25,205 nt of DNA from a virus. The notes under the pieces were generated by a model that was not told the origin of the DNA, searched no databases, and was given only the letters and a program-made list of their open reading frames with translations. The position numbers and the translations under genes are program-made. This document shows, piece by piece, positions 14,880-16,383 of the stretch. Each line of letters starts with the position of its first letter. The stretch's first letter is position 1. The stretch spans positions 1 through 25,205 of the IMG/VR virus record IMGVR_UViG_3300032323_000585; one strand, 5' to 3'.

Positions 14880-15040
14880 TCGTCGTCCCCCTCGGTTATT
14901 TGGTTAACTACTGATTCAGGGAACGTCAGTCCTACCATTGCGGCTTTGAACATGTTGAACCATTCGAAAATGTCGATGTCGCTACGTTCAGCGGTGATTG
15001 TCACGGTGATTCCGTGGTTAGTTGCGGTCAGTTGTGTCAT
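14876..15040 (-). CDS. Small phage protein, 54 aa
   Basis: ATG at 15038-15040 overlaps the end of the 246-residue gene by 23 bases, and the frame closes with TGA at 14876-14878. It reads MTQLTATNHGITVTITAERS, then DIDIFEWFNMFKAAMVGLTF and an acidic C-terminus. A short beta-rich start followed by a helix (FEWFNMFKAAMVGL) suggests a small folded domain, and short acidic proteins of this shape recur in phage replication regions. No function is assigned. The start and stop overlaps fit coupled translation with both neighbours. Confidence 0.65.
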   Translation of the reverse strand: MTQLTATNHGITVTITAERSDIDIFEWFNMFKAAMVGLTFPESVVNQITEGDDE

Positions 15041-15758
15041 AGTATTTTTTTATTGCTAATCGTTTGAAAATTCCATCTATTGCGACCGATTCCTCAAAAC
15101 TGATTGTCTTGAAGTGGTCTTCCTTCATTGCCTTAAATCGTTTCCATTCGTTCCGGTCTCCGTCCCCTTTGATTTGCGCTTCACGAATCTTTATGGCTTC
15201 AGCATACATCGCCACCTTTTCTTCGTCCGTCAACTTCAGTAAATCCAGTTGAACCATGAAGTCGTAAAGGTAGGAAGGTATCAAAGGAAGCCGAATGTTT
15301 TTACCTCGGTAGTTTTCAATTTCCGCAAGTTTTTCAGCGTCTGTCATCTTGTACTCAATTTGCTTTGGCAGTTCTTCAGGCGTTTCGCGCCATAAAGTTG
15401 ACACAAATCTGCGATAAGAAAAAATAATTTTTTGAAGGTAGGGAATGCTGAACTGGTCGAATGGGTTCAAGTCGGTCACGTCAAGCCGTCCTTGAATTCC
15501 TAACTTGAAAGCTGCGAGTAGTTCGTCCTTTGCCATTTTCGGGTAAGTGTCGCGAAGGAATTCCATCAGGATTCGTGCTTCAAAGTCAGTAGGGTGATGC
15601 TGCTTGCGAAGTCCGATCCAGACGTAAATGCGCATCAGTGCCTCTTGAATTTCTATGTCAGTGGATTTTTCTAGTGGCTTTCTCTTCATCAGTTCCGAAA
15701 GTGTCGACCATGTGATTCCAGTAGTCGATTCGTGCTTGATCGCGATTTCCTTGCTCAT
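15018..15758 (-). CDS. Replication-region protein, possible helicase-loader role (246 aa)
   Basis: A 246-residue, mostly helical protein. It begins MSKEIAIKHES and contains EIQEALMRIYVWIGLRKQHH, then a long helical block with FRDTYPKMAKDELLAAFKLG-like spacing ending in GRLDVTDLNPFDQFSIPYLQ. The second half (TDEEKVAMYAEAIKIREAQI) is coiled and charged. Proteins that follow an O-like initiator in phages often load the helicase, and the position here would suit that, but no ATP-binding P-loop is present, so this is inference. The start is supported by a strong A-rich leader directly before the ATG, even though it overlaps the initiator gene by 101 bases. Confidence 0.65.
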   Translation of the reverse strand: MSKEIAIKHESTTGITWSTLSELMKRKPLEKSTDIEIQEALMRIYVWIGLRKQHHPTDFEARILMEFLRDTYPKMAKDELLAAFKLGIQGRLDVTDLNPFDQFSIPYLQKIIFSYRRFVSTLWRETPEELPKQIEYKMTDAEKLAEIENYRGKNIRLPLIPSYLYDFMVQLDLLKLTDEEKVAMYAEAIKIREAQIKGDGDRNEWKRFKAMKEDHFKTISFEESVAIDGIFKRLAIKKYYDTTDRN

Positions 15759-16383
15759 TTTGTTTTGTTTTTAGTTCAAAGAATCCTTTCCATCCGTTTG
15801 CTATGCTTTGATCTATGATTGAAATAGCATTGTCTTCAATTTGATTTGATAGCTTGTAAAGGTTATTGAAAGAAATTTGTTCTGAAGATTTGAGCTTGAA
15901 TGTGAATTTGTGATGCGTCTTTTTGTATTTTTTCCATTCAGTCCATTTTTTTACAAACTGATATGAAAACGTCTTGAAGTTTATTGATTGTTTATCTGTA
16001 TTTCTATTTTCATTTTCATTTTCATTTTCATTTTCCATATGATGAACATATGGTTCAACATATGAAGAAGATATGTTTTTCACTTCTTCTTTTATTTTGC
16101 CTTTTCTATTATTAGAACGACTCTCGGAGAATCTGCTGCGCTTTTTAATTTCATCAGCAAGTCGAACATTGAAGTAATTTCCATTTTCATCTTTTTGAAA
16201 CTTCTTCATGATATCTTCATCAAGTTCGCGACATATGAATAATACTTGTTTTTCAGTTAATGCGCCATGCTGGAATTGAGCAATCAAAAGACGAAGATAT
16301 TTGCCTGTCTGTTCATTTGTGAAGAATTTTGTACCTGTGTCAAAGTCATTGACATAGAACAAAAAAGCAGGATCTTTTGCCAT
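15658..16383 (-). CDS. Replication initiator-like protein with DUF1376-like N-terminus (241 aa)
   Basis: A 241-residue protein. The N-terminal part AKDPAFLFYVNDFDTGTKFF, then TNEQTGKYLRLLIAQFQHGA and GNYFNVRLADEIKKRSRF, shows the winged-helix look of DUF1376/replisome-organiser proteins. A Ser/Arg/Lys linker (about 84-106) leads to YVEPYVHHM and an (EN)5 tract (117-126), then a helical C-terminal domain with aromatic-basic clusters (VKKWTEWKKYKKTHHKF). Such proteins bind the origin and recruit the helicase loader. The linker-coding DNA contains iteron-like repeats and an A-rich repeat, as in the lambda O gene, where the origin lies inside the initiator gene. It is preceded by a structured leader and overlaps the next gene by 101 bases. 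Confidence 0.8.
   Translation of the reverse strand: MAKDPAFLFYVNDFDTGTKFFTNEQTGKYLRLLIAQFQHGALTEKQVLFICRELDEDIMKKFQKDENGNYFNVRLADEIKKRSRFSESRSNNRKGKIKEEVKNISSSYVEPYVHHMENENENENENRNTDKQSINFKTFSYQFVKKWTEWKKYKKTHHKFTFKLKSSEQISFNNLYKLSNQIEDNAISIIDQSIANGWKGFFELKTKQNEQGNRDQARIDYWNHMVDTFGTDEEKATRKIH
16007..16035. repeat. Six-base tandem repeat, 4.8 copies, A-rich on the minus strand
   Basis: The plus strand reads TTTTCA four times and then TTTTC (minus-strand unit TGAAAA). In the initiator gene it encodes the (EN)5 run at residues 117-126. It directly adjoins the CATATG cluster and is strongly strand-asymmetric and easily melted, like the unwinding elements beside phage iterons. Confidence 0.8.
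16036..16075 (-). other. Iteron-like CATATG repeats, possible replication origin
   Basis: Three CATATG copies start at 16036, 16047 and 16059, and a related GATATG (CATATC on the minus strand) starts at 16070. The spacing is 11, 12 and 11 bases, about one helical turn. Two copies extend to CATATGTT in the minus-strand direction. The cluster lies inside the initiator-like gene, in the part encoding its linker, and abuts the A-rich repeat. Together these resemble the lambda-type origin layout. The part could also be driven by codon use for YVEPYVHHM. Confidence 0.45.

Follow-up and report, generated by a model that had tools for sequence, protein, structure and literature searches.

Candidate phage replication origin of helically phased CATATG iterons and joined hexamers in the linker DNA of an initiator-like gene

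Intragenic replication origins are established for lambda, SPP1, TP901-1, Tuc2009 and pSK41, and the origin proposed here is therefore not new in kind. In lambda, iterons and an adjoining A+T-rich tract lie in the middle of the initiator gene, with O followed by P (PMC7466680). In Bacillus phage SPP1, direct repeats and an unwinding element are located inside the initiator gene, gp38, and the phage possesses two origins, oriL and oriR, the second about 13 kb away (PMC6316719). The origins of TP901-1 and Tuc2009 likewise lie in direct repeats within the initiator gene (PMC8965321). Finally, the staphylococcal RepA_N initiator of pSK41 has a winged-helix N-domain whose targets are four boxes midway through rep, a dispensable linker, an exchangeable C-domain and a DnaD-like structure (PMC5703833).

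The locus described here lies in a 25,205-nucleotide stretch of viral DNA (IMG/VR record IMGVR_UViG_3300032323_000585), referred to as the window, and its features are collected in Table 1. An earlier sequence-only reading had pointed to three CATATG and one GATATG, 11-12 bases apart and adjoining a TTTTCA repeat, in the linker DNA of an initiator-like gene, and each of these elements was recovered. The spacings are 11, 12 and 11 nt, perfect copies of ATTTTC begin at 16006, 16012, 16018, 16024 and 16030 on the plus strand (Tandem Repeats Finder counts 5.7 copies over 16001-16035), and translation places the repeats in the linker. On the coding strand of the linker, AACATATCTTCTTCATATGTTGAACCATATGTTCATCATATG precedes five GAAAAT, and translation of the repeats gives NISSSYVEPYVHHM-ENENENENEN. 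The CATATG at 16232-16237 was absent from that reading, and relatives often carry a CATATG doublet at this N-domain position. CATATG is unenriched in the window overall (6 seen vs 5.3 expected), and in 4,000 Markov windows generated to match the local composition, no CATATG triplet at 9-13 nt spacing occurred. The hexamer tract falls within the 60-bp stretch of lowest duplex stability in the whole window. The GC skew of the window offers just a broad minimum over 10.5-15.5 kb and, with nearly all genes on one strand, is not decisive. DnaA boxes with one mismatch number 31 against 28 expected, with no cluster claimed, and searches for Rfam families and tRNAs returned no matches.

Table 1. Positions of the features of the initiator-like gene and its surroundings in the window
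Feature	Position	Strand	Remarks
Gene with repeats	15658-16383	minus	241 aa, initiator-like; repeats in linker DNA
N-domain coding sequence, residues 1-89, predicted winged-helix DNA-binding	16117..16383	minus	AlphaFold2 and fold matches
C-domain coding sequence	15661..15981	minus	O-like family PHROG 678, residues 81-220
Iteron 1, CATATG, reads HM, abuts hexamers	16036..16041	minus	site search
Iteron 2, CATATG, within PYV	16047..16052	minus	site search
Iteron 3, CATATG, within SYV	16059..16064	minus	site search
Iteron 4, degenerate, within NIS	16070..16075	minus	CATATC on coding strand, GATATG on plus strand
Outlying CATATG in N-domain coding sequence, within FICR	16232..16237	minus	site search
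Five perfect GAAAAT hexamers (ATTTTC on plus strand)	16006..16035	minus	proposed unwinding element
Hexamer tract with NNARAT continuation	15994-16035	minus	third-base test
Least stable 60-bp stretch of window	15980..16039	.	nearest-neighbour energy
Next gene, overlaps initiator 3' end	15018..15758	minus	candidate helicase loader by position only
Small protein, DnaA domain-IV-like helix-turn-helix	16494..16862	minus	PF08299, 4.3e-7; just upstream of initiator

The protein is laid out as a DUF1376-like winged-helix N-domain, a low-complexity linker and a helical C-domain. AlphaFold2 renders the N-domain mostly with confidence (pLDDT about 77-95 across the block, residues 1-10 excepted) as helical with a wing-like strand pair, the linker with low confidence, and the C-domain as helical. 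The N-domain is distantly related to DUF1376 (PF07120) and not a member by the Pfam cut-off, scoring 17.2 bits against a gathering score of 30.1, and DUF1376 proteins are found among its structure neighbours. VIA-align likens it to winged-helix domains, among them those of ORC2, DnaD-N and plasmid Rep initiators, with every Z under 6. These fold matches are weak (Z about 5 or less), including the similarity to the Rep initiators 4pt7 and 5kbj, and the Foldseek E values are not significant. RepA_N (PF06970) gave no Pfam match up to E 1, and a PDB sequence search with the N-domain returned nothing meaningful. Residues 81-220 match PHROG 678, “replication initiation O-like”, at 4e-6, and this match, together with a scan of 30 relatives that hit O-like, primosomal, replication-initiation and DnaD-like helicase-loader PHROGs, relates the protein to replication initiators. 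C-domains are swapped among relatives whose N-domain and linker remain alike. The product of the next gene matches PHROG 26016, of unknown function, and received no named function in Pfam or PHROG searches; in annotated phages with relatives of the initiator or its C-domain, the next gene encodes a DnaC-like loader, replication protein P, or a primase/helicase.

Among relatives, the array and hexamers are conserved as DNA, beyond the needs of the protein. When CATATG joined to three hexamers was searched for exactly, at least 120 stretches matched; among those listed, 118 are in the same frame, and most carry further sites 10-12 nt upstream. Because such a search presupposes its answer, relatives were also gathered through the N-domain alone, using the pattern KDPA[FV]LFY, which identified 64 loci in named genomes, most of them Bacteroidota and Clostridia; the test set comprises 56 non-redundant genes found in this manner. 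CATATG occurs 97 times in these genes against 7.9 expected from the flanks and, at 11.6-fold over flanks, is the most enriched of the 64 palindromic hexamers (next, 2.4-fold). About half of this enrichment is also accounted for by the retained amino acids, with 300 synonymous-codon shuffles giving a mean of 56.8 and a maximum of 65, all below the observed count. Successive CATATG are separated by 11 nt (76 gaps), 12 nt (33) or 22-24 nt (19). The check proposed in the sequence-only reading, of sites against residues in homologues, came out in favor of the sites: CATATG is kept in all three frames (as NIC, SYV/SYD and HM), and the His codons of linker HM pairs are CAT 91 : CAC 2, against 261 : 130 elsewhere, the opposite of residues being kept while codons drift. 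N-domain subtypes carry CATATG doublets at differing places and residues (ICKSYD, GHMSEHM, EHMRNIC). In one relative (L140), some 80-100 residues are inserted between the N-domain and the linker array, and the hexamers are still preceded by CATATG, at nt 543, 567 and 579.

In 132 genes, of which a query fixing this spacing had retrieved many, the last CATATG begins exactly 6 nt ahead of the hexamers. Beginning with the hexamer run, the third codon base switches between A and T over about 12 codons, against codon usage; at codon 8 the frequency of A is 0.89 vs 0.51 expected for the same residues, and at codon 9 that of T is 0.82 vs 0.47. The residues across the hexamers vary (E, I, K, V and L; N, I and D), and the DNA unit of the tract is NNARAT.

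Where CATATG is missing from a gene, different repeats take its place and keep the 11-nt phase. For example, ATACCACGGTA occurs three times, 11 nt apart, in a gene whose N-domain is 63% identical to that of the window (L132), and ATACCAAA four times in another (L141). A doublet of GCCGTGGC in the N-domain sequence (135, 147) returns in the linker (312, 324) of L152, and AAAGATAACCCA is similarly found in both places in L174. Across 22 genes without CATATG, self-similarity has peaks at lag 11 (z 6.4 relative to synonymous shuffles) and lag 22 (z 3.8), with 8 of the 22 singly reaching p<0.05 in the 11/12-nt test. The N-domain sequence and linker of one and the same gene have 120 8-mers in common in this set, against 30 (max 52) in synonymous shuffles and 35 (max 66) between genes; this test replaced a 14-nt best-match test of within-gene sharing, whose effect was small (p about 0.002). 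The layout is repeated independently in an unrelated N-domain family, that of L006, which has the same C-domain and a different N-domain. In most members of this family (L202-L222), AATGATT and AATCATT stand 11 nt apart at 57 and 68 of the N-domain sequence, the linker contains half-sites at -40, -29, -18 and -7 (up to four or more), and AAGGAT hexamers encode (KD)n; self-similarity reaches z 7.4 at lag 11 and z 8.5 at lag 22. The repeats are thus helically phased, laid out in two places, matched within a gene and joined to hexamers.

The array has also been found in non-coding DNA. In L031, L263 and L264, which by near-identity are one phage species and the sole known case, four sites and the hexamers lie between genes, past the end of the terminase gene, and the frame continuing the usual register there runs for just 27 codons. 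No such N-domain was found in these contigs, which are possibly incomplete, and related phages with terminases about 50% identical have no intergenic array. An ORF at the contig start of the intergenic-array phage was considered as a C-domain; it looked alike and matched no family. A DnaA domain-IV-like protein, similar to the one encoded just upstream of the initiator in the window, is present in the phage with the intergenic array (L195, 3863-4297; PF08299, 7.5e-12).

Low-complexity linkers are frequent, and SYxxHMENEN is common in these proteins, such that the repeats could be read as protein features, namely a flexible Asn/Glu-rich linker with conserved residues whose DNA repeats arose through slippage and codon bias. 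This reading is exceedingly improbable, given observed counts out of reach of synonymous shuffles, the His codon bias, sites in three reading frames, a geometry that stays where residues are replaced, a period of 11 nt that is no codon multiple, and the array in non-coding DNA. The CAT bias, the three frames, the new positions in divergent N-domains and the 11-nt phase of genes with other repeats argue instead that the linker repeats arose chiefly as by-products of a function of the DNA, as had been proposed for the EN run and its neighbours, with sites persisting while residues change. It is also very unlikely that the palindromic sites act as hairpins in the initiator mRNA and control its translation or decay. 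Four linkers folded as single strands do score below shuffles (z -1.9 to -4.1), as is expected where palindrome copies pair; however, pairing partners vary between relatives, the direct-repeat lineages with four ATACCAAA or with AAAGATAACCCA are unable to self-pair as palindromes do, and phasing at 11 and 22 nt suits duplex DNA.

A winged-helix protein with sites in its own gene could autoregulate, and the doublet in the N-domain sequence could serve as a second operator. That the array is an operator only, through which the initiator represses its own transcription or blocks read-through while replication starts elsewhere, is nonetheless unlikely, since this would leave unexplained both the presence, right next to the last iteron, of a hexamer tract conserved at the DNA level, and the movement of array and hexamers as a unit to the intergenic site after the terminase gene. 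The array is very probably a phage replication origin within its own initiator gene, a prediction that agrees with the sequence-only reading and draws upon the O-like, primosomal and DnaD-like loader PHROGs, the helicase loader or P next door in annotated phages, the lowest 60-bp duplex stability of the window, and the published intragenic origins.

We infer that the array is active as an origin through binding of the winged-helix N-domain to the iterons, with the CATATG core as its target in the window. With iterons one helical turn apart, several N-domains would stack on one face of the DNA, and DNA looping may bridge to the one or two sites set apart in the N-domain coding sequence. The resulting complex would strain and melt the adjoining A+T-rich NNARAT hexamers, whereupon the C-domain, exchanged between relatives, would recruit the helicase loader encoded next door and the host's DnaB-type helicase. 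Because the origin and the DNA-binding domain share a single piece of DNA, a change of binding specificity can be passed on jointly with the sites that match it.

By analogy, such an origin would work like those of lambda O, SPP1 gp38, TP901-1 ORF13 and pSK41 Rep. Like the initiator genes with intragenic origins, the gene in the window has tandem iterons inside its coding sequence and an A+T-rich tract beside them, an arrangement shared with lambda O/ori-lambda and the Stx phage origins, and its protein matches an “O-like” PHROG. The iterons of lambda are longer, with G+C-rich ends, whereas the cores in the window are short and mostly 11-12 nt apart; unlike those of lambda, iterons of this type differ from lineage to lineage and appear again within the sequence for the N-domain, and the tract is hexameric. 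The second origin of SPP1 is comparable, by layout alone, to the intergenic array of L031/L263. The lactococcal replisome organizers TP901-1 ORF13, Tuc2009 Rep2009 and that of r1t, which are of the Phage_rep_org_N type, resemble the present case in the intragenic repeat origin (TP901-1, Tuc2009), but the 11-nt signal of the window's family is not clear in the PF09681 genes sampled. pSK41 Rep shares the winged-helix N-domain predicted here, mid-gene sites, linker and exchangeable C-domain; its N-domain is of the RepA_N type, while that of the window is DUF1376-like by Pfam, and in contrast to the window, the accessible part of its description mentions no extra sites in the N-domain sequence.

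It is tempting to suggest, with somewhat less than even confidence, that a general, self-contained origin design may extend across phages of several bacterial phyla. In this design, helically phased, lineage-specific iterons in two clusters (DNA-binding-domain sequence and linker) would be accompanied by a six-base unwinding repeat that is translated as (EN)n, (KD)n or (ET)n; from one relative to another, the iteron would change in identity and the geometry would stay fixed. The initiator or loader may read the hexamer in single-stranded form, much as DnaA reads DnaA-trios. A literature search that covered few subscription papers, and is thus a weak negative, found no prior 11-bp-phased lineage-specific iterons, second occurrence in binding-domain sequence, or six-base unwinding repeat explaining dipeptide linkers. 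The layout would provide a sequence rule for locating the origins of a large, uncultured set of phages, those of Bacteroidota, Clostridia and their relatives, and would explain the common Asn/Glu and Lys/Asp repeats of initiators, which resemble mere low-complexity linkers. It also supplies many natural pairs of DNA-binding domain and iteron (CATATG, GGTCATATGACC, ATACCACGGTA, GCCGTGGC, AATGATT and others), making the binding code and the co-change of initiator and origin directly testable.

The PF09681 and PF14297 genes sampled yielded no clear common 11-nt signal, and no claim is therefore made for them as families. Three such initiators (L226, L233, L240) carry purine-rich tracts with periods of ~5, 7 or 8 nt, not multiples of three, at the place of the hexamers. 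In Vibrio phage 1.259.O (L337, gene 1030-1809, DUF4373), TCCGGAG occurs four times 11 nt apart at nt 365-404, followed by AGATT-type repeats, a single case that is suggestive of the same layout in a phage isolate. Finally, an initiator-like gene of Vibrio phage 1.079.O (L338, gene 1123-1782) has GGTGACAAACTGTCA inverted repeats ~21 nt apart at the same junction.
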